Part shown: positions 22,550 to 29,684 of the stretch, in pieces
Numbering within the stretch: position 1 is the stretch's first letter
Layout: each line of letters begins with the position of its first letter
Assembly (NCBI GenBank): GCA_024276355.1
Contig: JAJRXJ010000014.1
Location: 1 to 37,651, forward strand
Direction: 5' to 3'
Source: Actinomycetes bacterium
Lineage (GTDB): Bacteria > Actinomycetota > Acidimicrobiia > Acidimicrobiales > Aldehydirespiratoraceae
DNA length: 37,651 nucleotides
Translations under genes and position numbers: made by a program
The notes under the pieces: model-generated
Databases searched by the model: none
The model's input: the letters and a program-made list of their open reading frames with translations, nothing else
Told to the model about the DNA's origin: nothing

Positions 22550-23593
22550 ATGAAGGTATTGATCGACGCCGTCCACCCCGCGGATGTGTGGACTCTCGGC
22601 GCCGTCGAGGACCGACTGCTGGCCGAGGGAGCCGACACTCTCTGGCTGTCGCGCCCGGGGAAGGATTCGGTCGTGGAGTTGATCGAGGCCCGGGGTCGAC
22701 CCCACGTACCGGCATCCAGCGCCGGCACCACGATGTTCGGCTTGGCCAAGGAGTTGCTGGTTCGTGATCGCAACGCGCTGCGTACGACACGACGCTTTCG
22801 GCCCGACCTCATCCTCACAAGATCACCTGCGGGTGTCCACGCCGGACGGCTCACACGAACGCCGGTCATCTACGACACCGACGACGGCCACGTCGCGGGA
22901 CTGCTCTTCTGGGTGGCGGGACCGTTCGCGAACCTGATCGCCAGCCCCACCGCAACCGAGCGCAGCTACGGCAGGAAGCACCGCCGCTACCGCGGCTACA
23001 AGGAACTCTTCTACCTCCATCCGGATCGGTTCACCCCCGATCCCGGCGTGCGTGGGGAAATCGGGTTGGTTGACGATGAGCGGTTGTTCGTACTCCGTCT
23101 CACCGCCTTCACCGCCAGTCACGACGTGAGCGAGGCCGGTATGAGTCGAGCCCAGATCGATCGGATCCTGGCGATGATGACCCCGCTCGGGCGTGTGGTC
23201 ATCTCCTCGGAGTCCGTCCTGCCACCCGATCTGGCCGGGATGCGAATCACCACACCACCGGAGCGGTTCCATCATGTCCTGGCGGCCGCCGACCTCGTGG
23301 TGGGCGACAGCCAGACGGTCTGCTCCGAGGCGGGGGTGATCGGCACCCCTTCGATTCGCTACAACACATGGGCCGGGCGACACCCGTATCAGGTGGAACT
23401 CGAGGAGAAATGGGGTCTCACCAGAGCGTTCCCACTCACCGACGAAGACGGGTTCTTCTCAGCGGTTGAGAGTTCGCTGGCTGATCTCGACGGCCTTCAC
23501 GAACGTCAGGCTGATGGTCGCCGTCGAATGCTCGAGTGGTGTGGTGATCCGGTCGATGACCTGATGACCTGGATCGCCGAACTCACACGCTGA
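22550..23593 (+). CDS. DUF354-family glycosyltransferase-like protein
   Basis: 347 residues, GT-B-like layout. The start MKVLIDAVHPADVWTLGAVE, LTRSPAGVHAGRLTRTPVIY, DTDDGHVAGLL and the donor-site-like stretch ADLVVGDSQTVCSEAGVIGT followed by PSIRYN fit the DUF354 family, which resembles UDP-GlcNAc 2-epimerase and MurG-type folds and is common in archaeal and bacterial surface-glycan clusters. Its substrate is not known. Start ATG 22550, in frame with a longer open stretch from 22190 that lies antisense to the neighbour. Its last eleven bases overlap the end of the convergent amidase gene. Confidence 0.78.
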   Translation: MKVLIDAVHPADVWTLGAVEDRLLAEGADTLWLSRPGKDSVVELIEARGRPHVPASSAGTTMFGLAKELLVRDRNALRTTRRFRPDLILTRSPAGVHAGRLTRTPVIYDTDDGHVAGLLFWVAGPFANLIASPTATERSYGRKHRRYRGYKELFYLHPDRFTPDPGVRGEIGLVDDERLFVLRLTAFTASHDVSEAGMSRAQIDRILAMMTPLGRVVISSESVLPPDLAGMRITTPPERFHHVLAAADLVVGDSQTVCSEAGVIGTPSIRYNTWAGRHPYQVELEEKWGLTRAFPLTDEDGFFSAVESSLADLDGLHERQADGRRRMLEWCGDPVDDLMTWIAELTR

Positions 23594-25520
23594 CTGCCGT
23601 GGGGGCAGCGGTGATGGTCCAGGCCGCGGCTGTTGTGGCGAGCCGGTGGAGGAAGGTGGCCAACTCTCCGCGTGTGACCGGCCCGTCGGGTGAGAACGTG
23701 TCGGGGGTGATACCGGTGGTGACACCGATCTCGGCGAGCCAGGCCACGGCCTTCGTGTAGAAGGAATCAGCCGGAACATCGGCGAAGGGAGACGGCGAGC
23801 TCGGCTCGATACGGCCGCACAGCCGCCACAGGAAGGTGGCCATCTGGGCCCTGGTGACCCACGAATCGGGGCTGAACTCGGTGGCGGATGTGCCGGTGGT
23901 GATGCCCGACTCGGCGAGCCAGGCCACGGCCTCGGAATAGAAAACACCGCTGGGCACATCATCGAAGGGGGCTGGAGACCCCGGTGTCGGTGAGTCCATG
24001 AATCGCCACAGGAAGGTGGCCATCACCGCGCGGGTGACCTCATCCATGGGCTCGAACAGCCCCGGCTGGGTGCCGGTGGTGAGCGAGTGCCAGCGCATCC
24101 AGTAGACCCCGGGGGCGAAGAACCGGTTGGGCTCGACATCGATGAAACCGGCGAAGAGGTGGAGGTCCATCAGCTTCGCGGAACGACCGTCGGCGGCTGT
24201 GGTGTCGACTCGGATGTTGGTGGTGTCGATGTCGATCGGGACCGTGTGGTCGAACCCGTGGGCGATCCCGGCGGTTGGATAGGACTCATCAAGGCCCGGT
24301 CGGGGCGTATCGGCGACGATGGAGGCAAACGGTGTGCCATCGACCGCTATGTCGACCGTGGTCGGAGAGCGTGGAGCGAAGCGGTCGATTGTCCATCCGG
24401 TGACATCGACGGCATCGAGTGCGTAGGTCGGGGTGAGCGTGCCGAACACCGGCACCAGTTCGGCCGCGCCGGTGCGCACTTCCGGGATCCGTCCGTAGAG
24501 CACGTTTCCGGGGCACGCGGTCTGTTGATTGTCGCGGTGGCCAGAGACGTTGTGGAGAAGCACCATCTCTCCCGGTTCCGCGTAGTCGCCGCCGGCCGAC
24601 CTGACGAATGAGGTCCCCAACGGGTCGACTCCGAACAGCGACAACTTCCATCCGAGCAGGCGGATCAGACTGTCGATGACGGCTTGGCCGGGATCGACCC
24701 TGCTGAATGTTCCGAGAACGGAAACTCCCATGCTCTCGGTGTTGAGTCCCGACACGTGGGCGCCGCTGATCGGTTCGTAGATGCTGCCCTGGCGGGCATG
24801 CCAGATGCGACCGAACCTGTCGATCACGAAGTTGTAGCCGATGTCGTCCCAGCCCCTGGTGTCCATGTGGTAGCTCTGAATGAGCCAGAGCATTCGGGGC
24901 ACGTCGTCGGGGGAGTAGTTGTTGGTGTTGACCGTGTGGTGGATGACTCCGTGGCGAAGACCCACGTCGGCCCGGCACCCAAGACCGAACACCGATGCCC
25001 CCAGCCAACAATCGATGGTGTCCTTGCGGACCCTGTCGGTCCAGTTGCTTCGTTCGATGATCTCGAGACCGGGGGCGGGTGAGACGGTGGTGTAGGGGCC
25101 TGTTGTTGCCTGCGGAGTGAGCTGCCTGGTCGGACCGGAGATGCGGTGGAGGCGCAAATCGGGCACGTCGGCAACGGGAGTGATGCGGTAGGAGGTCGCG
25201 CCCGGCACGATGATGACCGGGGAATGGGCCCGGCCGGTCGGATCGGGCGGACCGTGGCCGTGATCGGAGGCAACTTCGGTCGCCGCGGTCCAGTTTCCGG
25301 CCACGAGGGCCTCGACAGTGGCGACGGTGGTCATCGATTCGGGGCCGAACCAACTGAGCGACAACCCACCGAGGGCGTCGACATCGATCACGGTCGGGGA
25401 GATGAGAGGAGTGCCGATGCTGGTGTCGGCAGATGCTCCCGCACCGATCATCCGAGGGAGTATGGCTGAAAGAGGCGTCAGGGCCGCCGCCTGCAGGAAC
25501 CGCCGGCGGTGGAGAGTCAT
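23583..25520 (-). CDS. Tat-exported PGRP-type N-acetylmuramoyl-L-alanine amidase with three SLH-like repeats
   Basis: 645 residues. The N-terminus HRRRFLQAAAL is a twin-arginine (Tat) signal. Residues about 155-345 form a peptidoglycan-recognition/amidase-2 domain: GVIHHTVNTNNYSP (zinc His194 or 195), WDDIGYNFVIDRFGRIW, SGHRDNQQTACPG (zinc His328, Cys336). All ligands are present, so it should cut the MurNAc-L-Ala bond. Residues 459-645 hold three SLH-like repeats, each FxDVxxxxFYxxAVxWLAExGITTGTxxxxFxPDxxVTRxxxATFLWR. Start: the ATG at 25520 overlaps the TGA of the SpoIID-like gene (ATGA), so the two are translationally coupled. It likely works outside the membrane on the wall, held there by the repeats. 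Confidence 0.9.
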   Translation of the reverse strand: MTLHRRRFLQAAALTPLSAILPRMIGAGASADTSIGTPLISPTVIDVDALGGLSLSWFGPESMTTVATVEALVAGNWTAATEVASDHGHGPPDPTGRAHSPVIIVPGATSYRITPVADVPDLRLHRISGPTRQLTPQATTGPYTTVSPAPGLEIIERSNWTDRVRKDTIDCWLGASVFGLGCRADVGLRHGVIHHTVNTNNYSPDDVPRMLWLIQSYHMDTRGWDDIGYNFVIDRFGRIWHARQGSIYEPISGAHVSGLNTESMGVSVLGTFSRVDPGQAVIDSLIRLLGWKLSLFGVDPLGTSFVRSAGGDYAEPGEMVLLHNVSGHRDNQQTACPGNVLYGRIPEVRTGAAELVPVFGTLTPTYALDAVDVTGWTIDRFAPRSPTTVDIAVDGTPFASIVADTPRPGLDESYPTAGIAHGFDHTVPIDIDTTNIRVDTTAADGRSAKLMDLHLFAGFIDVEPNRFFAPGVYWMRWHSLTTGTQPGLFEPMDEVTRAVMATFLWRFMDSPTPGSPAPFDDVPSGVFYSEAVAWLAESGITTGTSATEFSPDSWVTRAQMATFLWRLCGRIEPSSPSPFADVPADSFYTKAVAWLAEIGVTTGITPDTFSPDGPVTRGELATFLHRLATTAAAWTITAAPTAVSV

Positions 25521-27577
25521 GGCACTCGCATCGCTGCCGGTGGGGTGGTTCCGGCAGCGAAGGCCTCAGGCTTGCCGGCGAGGCGCCACAGGAAAGTGGC
25601 CATCTCGGCGCGGTTCACGGGGCTCTCGGGTTCGAATGTCTGGGGGCTGGTTCCTGTGGTGATACCCCATTCCACCATCCAGGAGATCGGTGTTGCGTAA
25701 TACCTGTTCGGATCCACGTCGGCGAAGGCCTGGTCGACGCTGGGGGTGGGTCTTCCGGCGAAGCGCCACAGGAACGTTGCCGCCTGTCCACGGGTGACCG
25801 TGAGGTCGGGTGAGAACTCGGTGGGGGACGTGCCGGTGGTGATCCCGGCATCGAGTAGCCACGAGACCGCCTCTTCGTAGTCGGCTCCGGCGGCGACATC
25901 GGTGAACGGTCCGGGTATGACTGCTGGGGGTTTGCCGGCGAAGCGCCACAGGAACAGGGCCACGCTGGCCCGGCTGTTGGGTTCGAAGGGCGAGTAGAGG
26001 TTGGGGGCGGTGCCGAAGGCGATGTTGGACTCGGTGATCCATCTGATCGGATCGGTGAACCACTTGCCGGAGGGCACGTCGAAGAAGGAACTGATCCGGA
26101 TCTTGGTGGTGAGCGGCTCGGAGCAACCCGAATCGGCGCGACACCCCAGTTGGATGGCGCGGAAGAATCGGTATCCGTAGGGATCGCCGGACGAGTTGAC
26201 GACCTCGAGAGTACGGTCGGATCCATAAAGGGTGACCAGGGCCTTGTCGATCCGGCCGGAGGGAGGCACGCCTGAGATGACAATCCCCTGCACCGTGCCC
26301 ACATCAAGGTTGGCGTAGGGATAGTTCTTGAGCCAGCGGCTGATGTCGGCCAGGGAGTAGGTGAACTCCCACTTGCCGTTGCGGTTCTCGGGTATGTCGT
26401 CGTATGGGTCGGGATTGGCCCTCAGGTAGGAGAGGGGCACGTTGCCCCACACGTCCTCGTTGGCCGCGGTGTAACCGCCGTTGGACGATGAATAGAACGT
26501 CGAGGCGACGGTTGTGTCGGGGGCGGCGACGAACATGTCGTTGGTGAGGTCGACCGCTTCGATCCAGCGGCACGACGCACCGGTGGGGCACACCTCCGAT
26601 TCGTGATTCCAGCCGACGTAGTACTGGTCCTTGGTGGATGCGTAGAGATTGAACGGCTCATACCAGGTGGGTCTGGTGCGGGACTCGATGCGTGAGAGGG
26701 CGTAGGAACGACCGGCGATCGCCTGGGTGCGCAACGCCTCGATGTGCCAAGTGGACGGAACCTCGGCCAGGCCGTACAGGTATTGCTGCATGGTCATGTT
26801 GCCGACCACCACGCAGAAACTGTTCGATCCCCCGCCGAGGCACTGGGTGGTTACTTCCGACTTGCCGCTGTGGGTGGAAGTCGGACGACCCTGGGGAACG
26901 AGAGTGATCTGGCCGTGGGCGTAGGCCCGATCGGCCTCACCGCTGCGTTTCCACGCGGCACTTATCGACAGCGGCTCGCCGTCGGTGAACCTGATGTCGA
27001 GCCAGGCCGGCGCCGGCCAAGGTTGGCTCGCACAGCCACTCGGGCACAGGTCGACGGCCCCGGGATCGGCGGTGATCGACGGGTTGGATGCAGAACCGTT
27101 GCAGCGTGCGCCGGGGCCGGTCAACACTTCCCACCAGTAGTTCCCGCTGGTGCCCGGTCCGTTGCGGCTGATGGCCACCGGGTCGGTGGTGGTGCCGATG
27201 TCGGTGCCGTCGATGGCGATCGTGACCTGACCCGAGGGTCTGAAAGAGGAGCAGTTTGCGGTGCCGACCAGCACATCGACGTCGTCGACGACGACCGCGG
27301 GGTCGAGGGTCAGGCCACTGGCCGGGAGAAGCTGTGTGCCCTGGTAATAGAAGGCGATGATTTCCTCGGCGGTCTGTCCGGCCCGGGCCCGACCGAGCGC
27401 GCCGTATTGGCTCATGCCTATGCCGTGCCCCCAACCGCCCCCGGAGAACGTGAGACTCGGATCAGCCGGTGGGGTCGACACGGCGCGGGCCACCGCAGCA
27501 GCCCCACTCGCCGCTGGCGAAAGGCTGACGGCCAGCAAGGAGATGGCGATAGTGATCAGTACTCGAATTCGGATCAT
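25517..27577 (-). CDS. SpoIID/LytB-domain protein with three SLH-like repeats
   Basis: 686 residues. A Sec signal (IRVLITIAISLLAVSL) is followed by FSGGGWGHGIGMSQYGA (residues 44-60), then the SpoIID core MQQYLYGLAEVPSTWHIEA with the likely catalytic Glu272, TQAIAGRSYALSR and STFYSSSNGGYTA. SpoIID cleaves glycan strands from which the stem peptides were removed. In Bacillus proteins the GWGHGxGMSQ motif lies after the catalytic block; here, as in many actinobacterial members, it lies before. Residues 495-686 carry three SLH-like repeats. Start ATG 27577, with TATAAC (27624-27619) as a possible -10 box. First gene of a coupled pair with the amidase. Multiple cysteines (110, 159, 178, 182, 246, 255) suggest disulfides. 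Confidence 0.9.
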   Translation of the reverse strand: MIRIRVLITIAISLLAVSLSPAASGAAAVARAVSTPPADPSLTFSGGGWGHGIGMSQYGALGRARAGQTAEEIIAFYYQGTQLLPASGLTLDPAVVVDDVDVLVGTANCSSFRPSGQVTIAIDGTDIGTTTDPVAISRNGPGTSGNYWWEVLTGPGARCNGSASNPSITADPGAVDLCPSGCASQPWPAPAWLDIRFTDGEPLSISAAWKRSGEADRAYAHGQITLVPQGRPTSTHSGKSEVTTQCLGGGSNSFCVVVGNMTMQQYLYGLAEVPSTWHIEALRTQAIAGRSYALSRIESRTRPTWYEPFNLYASTKDQYYVGWNHESEVCPTGASCRWIEAVDLTNDMFVAAPDTTVASTFYSSSNGGYTAANEDVWGNVPLSYLRANPDPYDDIPENRNGKWEFTYSLADISRWLKNYPYANLDVGTVQGIVISGVPPSGRIDKALVTLYGSDRTLEVVNSSGDPYGYRFFRAIQLGCRADSGCSEPLTTKIRISSFFDVPSGKWFTDPIRWITESNIAFGTAPNLYSPFEPNSRASVALFLWRFAGKPPAVIPGPFTDVAAGADYEEAVSWLLDAGITTGTSPTEFSPDLTVTRGQAATFLWRFAGRPTPSVDQAFADVDPNRYYATPISWMVEWGITTGTSPQTFEPESPVNRAEMATFLWRLAGKPEAFAAGTTPPAAMRVP

Positions 27578-27726: not shown

Positions 27727-28857
27727 GTGAAGAGAACTCCCATAACCCTCCTGTCCGTTGCGATCGTCGCCGCCCTGCTCTCGACCGCTCCCGGAGCGGC
27801 GGGTGCCGCGGTCCCGGCCGACGTGGCCCACGTGATCGTCAGCGTGGTCGACGGCCATGAACCGGGTGATGCCACCGCTCTTGCTTCGAGGATCGACGCA
27901 AGATTCGGTCCGGACGTCGTCACCACATTGGCCCTTGACGATGTCGACATAATCGCTGCCGATGTCACGCCGTCGGGTCGGTCAGGTCTCGCATCGCTCC
28001 CCGAGGTGAAGTCGATCTCGGAGGCTCGCGGGTTCGCTCCATCCCTCAATGTCTCCGTGCCTCACATAGGTGCCGCCGCCCTCCATGCGGCGGGCTTCAC
28101 GGGCAAGGGCACGGCTGTCGTGGTGATCGACTCGGGGGTGTCCACCACCACTCCCGCCCTGGCGGCTTCGCCGACTCATGGGGGTTCGGTGATCTACGAG
28201 GAATGTTTCCTCAGCGGCGCCGACAATGTGACACTTCCGGGTGATCCCGCTCCGTCGACTCCGGTTGAGTTGTGCCCCAACGGAAGCACACATGCCATCG
28301 GTGTCGGTGCCGGTCAGCCCTGCACGACGCTTCCTTCACCGTGCAGTCATGGCACGGGTGTTGCCGGGGTCATCGCTGCTCATGAAGCCGGCTCTCCCTA
28401 CATCGGAGTTGCCCCCGATGCGTCTATCATCTCGCTGCGCACAACGGCGATCATCCGAAGACCCGGCGGTGCGGTCGAGAGCTACATCCCCGAACAGGGG
28501 GTGCTCGCCGCTCTCAACGCGGTCGTCTCGCTCAGCTCATCGCTCGACATATCTTCGGTCAACCTCAGCCTCGGTGGTCCGGCAAACGGCTGTGTCGACA
28601 CGGCGTGGGAGTCGGTCGTGTCCAAACTGGCAACGGTGGGTGTGGCGGTGGTGGCGGCCAGTGGCAACGGTGGCTCGTCGTCGTCGATCTCATTCCCGGC
28701 ATGTCTGCCCGGCGTGGTGTCGGTGGGAGCGTCCAACTCGTCCGGTCAGGTTGCGTCATTTTCCGACACGAGCTCGCTTCTCGACCTTGTGGCGCCCGGT
28801 GGGGCGGTTGTCACGGCCGCGCCCACGTCCTTTGCGGTCAGTGGGTACGCCACCTAA
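27727..28857 (+). CDS. N-terminal part of the S8 protease (ends before the catalytic serine)
   Basis: 376 residues as translated without readthrough. GTG start at 27727 (KRTPITLLSVAIVAALLSTA is a Sec signal). Residues about 30-100 look like an inhibitor-I9-type propeptide, then the subtilisin fold begins at FTGKGTAVVVIDSGV. It contains Asp and His of the triad and the oxyanion Asn but not the serine, so this product alone would be inactive. Cysteines around ECFLSG, VELCPNG and PSPCSHG may form disulfides. The Shine-Dalgarno is not visible; ATG two bases upstream leads at once into a stop, so GTG is the start. Confidence 0.6.
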   Translation: MKRTPITLLSVAIVAALLSTAPGAAGAAVPADVAHVIVSVVDGHEPGDATALASRIDARFGPDVVTTLALDDVDIIAADVTPSGRSGLASLPEVKSISEARGFAPSLNVSVPHIGAAALHAAGFTGKGTAVVVIDSGVSTTTPALAASPTHGGSVIYEECFLSGADNVTLPGDPAPSTPVELCPNGSTHAIGVGAGQPCTTLPSPCSHGTGVAGVIAAHEAGSPYIGVAPDASIISLRTTAIIRRPGGAVESYIPEQGVLAALNAVVSLSSSLDISSVNLSLGGPANGCVDTAWESVVSKLATVGVAVVAASGNGGSSSSISFPACLPGVVSVGASNSSGQVASFSDTSSLLDLVAPGGAVVTAAPTSFAVSGYAT

Positions 28858-28968
28858 AGCGGCACATCTTTCTCGGCTCCCCACATCAGCGGGGCCTTTG
28901 CTCTGCTTCGCTCGACGTTTCCCTCATTCGAACCGTCGCGGACCCGCAACCTGCTGCGATCCACCGGG

Positions 28969-29625
28969 GTGATGGTGCCGCGGCCGACGCCGTCACCGAG
29001 CGATCGCGAGACCAGATTTCCCGAGGTCCGGGTCGACGCGGCCCGGTCATTCGTCCCCTTTGCCGATGCCACCGGCGCCGCGTTCTGGATACTCCCGGCC
29101 GACTGGGCCAAAGCGACCGGAATCTCAACCGGCATCGACGGCGTCAATTTCGGACCCGCCGGCACGCTCGACAGGGCCCAGGCGGTCACGTTCCTGTGGC
29201 GTTTCATGGGCCAACCGGCAGCCACCGCAGCGGCGACCTTCAGCGATCTCGAACCCGGTCGGTTCTACATCGACGCCGTCAACTGGGCTGCCGAGACCGG
29301 CGTAACCACCGGCATCCCCGGAAACCTGTTCGACCCAGCCGGCGGAGTGACGCGGGGCCAGCTGGCCACGTTCATGTGGCGCATGGCGGGGCGTCCGGCG
29401 GCTCCCTCCTCAAGTGGTTTCGCCGACGTTGCCCCAGGTATCTACTACGCCACCGCCGTCGACTGGATGGCGGCCAACGGCATAACCACCGGCACGGCGC
29501 CGGGAGTGTTCAGCCCCGACAGCGTGGTGACCCGGGCGCAAATGGTCACGTTCCTGCAACGCCTGGCCTCCACCGCCGGCGCCTGGACCGGAACAGTGTC
29601 TCCCCCCACCCGAGTCCTCTTCTAG
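28969..29625 (+). CDS. C-terminal part of the S8 protease: three SLH-like repeats
   Basis: 218 residues if started at the GTG 28969 (an ATG follows at 28972), but the coding signal in the same frame extends upstream to the codon right after the TAA and includes the serine motif SGTSFSAPHISG. The repeats are FVPFADATGAAFWILPADWA, TFSDLEPGRFYIDAVNWAAE and GFADVAPGIYYATAVDWMAA with their GITTGT and VTRGQ/VTRAQ parts. No signal peptide precedes this start, so an independent product would stay in the cytoplasm; it is better seen as the detached tail of the protease. Ends two bases before a perfect 58-bp palindrome. Confidence 0.5.
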   Translation: MMVPRPTPSPSDRETRFPEVRVDAARSFVPFADATGAAFWILPADWAKATGISTGIDGVNFGPAGTLDRAQAVTFLWRFMGQPAATAAATFSDLEPGRFYIDAVNWAAETGVTTGIPGNLFDPAGGVTRGQLATFMWRMAGRPAAPSSSGFADVAPGIYYATAVDWMAANGITTGTAPGVFSPDSVVTRAQMVTFLQRLASTAGAWTGTVSPPTRVLF

Positions 29626-29626
29626 C

Positions 29627-29684
29627 CCCGGTTTTGTGAACGTTTGGAGTCCCGTACGGGACTCCAAACGTTCACAAAACCGGG
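29627..29684. repeat. Perfect 58-bp palindrome between convergent genes
   Basis: Two 29-base arms, 29627-29655 and 29656-29684, are exact reverse complements with no spacer; the arm begins CCCGGTTTTGTGAACG and the centre is CCCGTACGGG. As RNA it would fold into one very long hairpin. It lies between the protease end (29625) and the end of the convergent dehydrogenase gene (29695), so a bidirectional terminator role is likely, but the T-run lies inside the left arm and A-run inside the right arm instead of after the stem. It could also be a small mobile or REP-like repeat, which one copy cannot show. Confidence 0.85.

Follow-up and report, generated by a model that had tools for sequence, protein, structure and literature searches.

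A single in-frame TAA in the gene for a subtilisin-like, SLH-bearing surface protease of an Aldehydirespiratoraceae bacterium, probably a recent loss-of-function allele

The window, that is, the whole 37,651-nucleotide stretch of DNA that was analysed, carries on its forward strand a gene for a family S8 (subtilisin-like) protease with C-terminal SLH repeats, the frame of which is broken at one point only. Translation of positions 27727-29625 gives 376 codons, a TAA at 28855-28857, a further 255 codons in the same frame, and a TAG at 29623-29625. The interruption is most simply, and probably, a recent nonsense, loss-of-function allele of a gene that is conserved among relatives but dispensable, and not a new control switch.

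Structure of the interrupted gene

The features of the gene are as follows; the catalytic residues were placed by S8 motifs and alignment with subtilisin.

27727..29625, forward strand: S8-SLH protease gene broken by a single in-frame TAA (632 codons plus the final TAG)
27727..28857, forward strand: the frame that is actually open, 376 a.a., beginning with a signal-like N-terminus, covering positions 1-214 of the 288 in the S8 profile, and lacking the catalytic Ser
28129..28131, forward strand: Asp135, catalytic (IDSGV)
28348..28350, forward strand: His208, catalytic (SHGTG)
28666..28668, forward strand: Asn314, oxyanion hole (ASGNG)
28855..28857, forward strand: premature TAA at codon 377, in the alignment column of subtilisin residue 217
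28867..28869, forward strand: Ser381, catalytic (SGTSFSAPH), four codons past the TAA
29062..29544, forward strand: SLH repeats (Pfam for two, reading for the first)

Membership in the S8 family is supported by a Peptidase_S8 (PF00082) score of 122.2 bits for the read-through frame against a cut-off of 21.8, and the 376-residue part alone scores 78.1 bits. At the C-terminus, SLH (PF00395) scores 74.4 bits against a Pfam cut-off of 20.8, and the N-terminus, by reading, resembles a signal peptide. A preliminary description of this DNA had proposed that a secreted S8 protease is interrupted by the TAA with one residue missing at that point, and both proposals are borne out, as the stop replaces exactly one residue, filling a single alignment column with no indel. 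It had also placed the stop directly before the catalytic serine, which is wrong, since Ser378, Gly379, and Thr380 lie between the TAA and Ser381; counting back from the GTS motif as subtilisin residues 219-221, where Ser221 is catalytic, the TAA falls at residue 217. The distribution of Asp, His, and Asn upstream of the stop, and of Ser and the SLH region downstream, agrees with that description. Of the three SLH-like repeats that it counted, two stand above the Pfam cut-off (29239-29367 and 29422-29544), and the first, starting at about 29062, is more diverged and was recognized by reading only.

The consequence for the product follows from this layout. Asp135 and His208 lie before the TAA and Ser381 after it, and a full Asp-His-Ser triad is present in one product only if the TAA is passed or erroneous. 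Likewise, the signal-like N-terminus (by reading) and the SLH repeats are on opposite sides of the stop. In relatives, the intact gene encodes an exported subtilisin-like protease that its SLH repeats hold on the cell surface. A base substitution would here have turned codon 377 into TAA, and translation would end after 376 residues, leaving a product that retains Asp, His, and Asn but stops short of the catalytic Ser and its helix, of the remainder of the catalytic domain, and of the entire anchor. With these parts lost, the product should be inactive and not anchored.

Relatives and the age of the change

The comparison set comprised 51 genomes of the same family, including that of the window itself. 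Strong matches were found in 14 other genomes, covering either most of the protein or its C-terminal half at a contig end. Twelve of these relatives show the GTS motif and were aligned; the two more distant ones (L048 and L049), in which the motif was absent as searched, were left out, and their frames are likewise free of stops. The preliminary description had called for an orthologue comparison, and at the stop column all 12 aligned relatives have a sense codon with no indel: Gln in five (L038, L039, L040, L042, and L043), Phe in three (L041, L045, and L046), Leu in two (L037 and L047), Val in one (L044), and Trp in one (L050). Such intact orthologues, reading sense at this position, are expected of a nonsense pseudogene. 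Among 105 S8 matches in the 51 family genomes, an internal stop occurs in the present gene only.

The 255 codons after the TAA align end to end with the relatives and show 70% protein identity to the congener G002. Differences from G002 by codon position are 0.24, 0.21, and, at third positions, 0.56, an excess that is the pattern expected of a gene long under constraint. The end-to-end alignment and the third-position excess together indicate one gene with a stop in it, not two adjacent frames and not a chance reading frame. As had been described, neither a second stop nor a frameshift is present in the 255 codons. About 18 new stops per substitution per site are expected downstream, which makes a neutral divergence of more than roughly 0.17 improbable, although this limit is a loose one. 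Departures from strongly conserved columns after the TAA number 5 of 95 (1-15 in intact relatives), and in relative-rate comparisons with G002 most outgroups give nearly equal values (18 versus 18 with L040; the most uneven, 23 versus 11, with L041), so that no clear acceleration downstream of the TAA is seen in either measure. Because the downstream part lacks other damage or clear acceleration, the change is presumably young, or else it is not in the cells. The same intact frame is evidence against a recent allele insofar as it offers no positive sign of decay and would fit readthrough too.

No S8 match exists in the congener G003 (completeness 96%), which indicates that the gene is dispensable and can be lost. 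Elsewhere in the window's own genome there are four other S8 matches without an inside stop, one of which also bears SLH repeats, and the likely consequence of the TAA is the loss of one among several S8 proteases. That second S8-SLH protease (L003, G000:C310:22713-25583) has an open frame with the GTS serine motif and meets a contig end.

Neighboring genes and repeats

In most relatives the gene is flanked by the same neighbors, a divergent SpoIID-like gene and, on the opposite side, a glycosyltransferase 2 gene; an amidase-SLH gene farther along is conserved in G001 and G002. In the window, the reverse strand at 23583-27577 carries Amidase_2-SLH and SpoIID-SLH genes that overlap by 4 bases and lie divergent beside the protease, an arrangement also conserved in G001 and G002. 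Together with the protease, these are probably three wall-anchored proteins acting on the cell envelope. A scan of wider genome contigs yielded only a distant Streptomyces locus, and viral contigs yielded none.

Directly 3' of the protease gene, between convergent genes, is a perfect 58-bp palindrome (window 29627-29684). About 34 copies are present in the genome (half-sites with at most 2 mismatches: 35 forward, 32 reverse; 0 with a reversed-pattern control), four contigs start 46 bp from a copy, and none was found in 24 relatives, including three congeners. It resembles an intergenic repeat expanded specifically in this species, and perhaps serves as a two-way terminator.

Interrupted SLH proteins as a broader group were also considered. 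Of 15 SLH matches marked as containing stops, those with a visible repeat end have their natural C-terminal stop there, and one, G054:C26, has a truly internal one, in another gene, another genome, and with another stop. This protein (L070, G054:C26:22000-24600) has an in-frame TAG at residue 491 (third forward frame; ...GDITWLL, stop, QGITTG...), and its SLH repeats continue past it.

Alternative explanations

The main rival to a recent nonsense allele is an error of the consensus or assembly, or the choice of a minority allele during assembly; the codon in the cells would then be a sense codon, and the protease would be made in full. An erroneous base would be indistinguishable in the consensus from a real nonsense allele, the rest of the gene is undamaged, and the genome is a fragmented draft of 388 contigs (90% complete, 4% contamination). 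Against such an error, consensus errors seldom take the form of one substitution within non-repetitive coding sequence, and the window's 33 evident genes otherwise look open in a reading of the ORF list. A scan for same-frame coding across stops was too insensitive to recover the present gene, and no assembly error rate can be drawn from it. We regard an error as a distinctly smaller chance than a TAA that is real in the cells.

Far behind comes regulated readthrough, in which most ribosomes would stop and yield an inactive secreted form while a few pass the TAA and yield the active anchored protease. Such a reading draws on the intact, long-constrained frame past the TAA and on the residues inserted at UAA in E. 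coli, namely Tyr, Gln, Lys, and Ala (PMC11126739). As Gln is the residue of five relatives at the site, rare readthrough could give an acceptable protein. However, relatives would be expected to retain a readthrough site that works, and the TAA is in none of them. The preliminary description held that TAA is the least leaky stop, and in E. coli reporters it is indeed passed least of the three stops, with a mean readthrough of about 0.01-0.05% of wild type (PMC11126739). Its statement that no stimulating structure follows the TAA is likewise supported, with RNA folding after and around the TAA unremarkable against shuffles (z = -1.41, 0.25, and -0.64), and no Rfam match was obtained in the window. 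Two PCRF-type release factors are present, as expected for RF1 and RF2, both of which read UAA, and among the 33 tRNAs found in this 90% complete genome there is no UUA, CUA, or UCA anticodon, so a suppressor tRNA was not found. These findings, with the termination of ordinary genes by TAA (below), uphold the earlier preference for mutation or error, and regulated readthrough appears improbable. A little less probable still is that a living population carries the TAA and a near-cognate tRNA passes it rarely, giving a few anchored full-length proteases, with readthrough setting the surface activity. Proof of readthrough would make this gene a rare example at UAA in bacteria; nothing here favors readthrough.

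That the gene is split, with internal starts yielding the part after the TAA as a protein of its own that has SLH repeats only, is very improbable: in-frame GTG/ATG/GTG codons at 28969-28977 would open a frame of 217-218 a.a. with the SLH repeats, but a good ribosome site is not evident upstream of them (by reading), and a signal peptide is absent, leaving the repeats unable to reach the wall.

Reassignment of TAA to a sense codon has next to no probability and is refuted as far as sampled. TAA is rare at gene ends, at 7 of the 318 genes that a simple codon-usage gene caller placed in 412 kb of this genome (the present gene included; TGA 273, TAG 38), but it terminates lysyl-tRNA synthetase (LysS)-, ATP synthase delta (AtpH)-, KUP transporter-, and DEAD-box helicase-like frames at their expected ends (named by reading, not by profile), both release factors are present, and no UAA-reading tRNA was found. 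TAA is a normal though rare stop in this genome. One TAA boundary with coding sequence beyond it proved, by reading, to be a helicase followed by a separate methyltransferase-like gene.

Comparison with known systems

A recent nonsense allele remains the preferred explanation, and by itself it means little: it shows a surface-protease gene that is probably being lost, or a base to check. For annotation, the 376-residue frame ought not to be labeled an active protease, nor the downstream SLH frame a separate gene.

The nearest solved chains are those of the subtilisins NAT, E, and BPN' (family S8), which share with the present gene the Asp, His, Asn, and Ser motifs in order and GTSxxxPH around the Ser. 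In contrast to these, the present gene has its catalytic Ser beyond an in-frame TAA, as well as added C-terminal SLH repeats. Within the bacterial family, the S8-SLH proteases at syntenic loci (G002:C80, G001:C68, G018:C214, G057:C9, G056:C6, G011:C1, and G023:C24) are 48-61% identical to it (tblastn) and share its domain order and its neighbors, the SpoIID-like gene and, in most, glycosyltransferase 2; all have a sense codon where the present gene has TAA. Bacterial readthrough is described as rare, and two proved cases, nudL and pheL of E. coli, occur at UGA (PMC5373646). Like the present gene, these have an open frame past the stop, whereas the UAA here is not conserved and lacks a recoding signal. 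With recent bacterial pseudogenes that have a single nonsense mutation, the present gene shares the single stop in an otherwise intact frame, intact copies in relatives, and dispensability, and no difference from them was seen.
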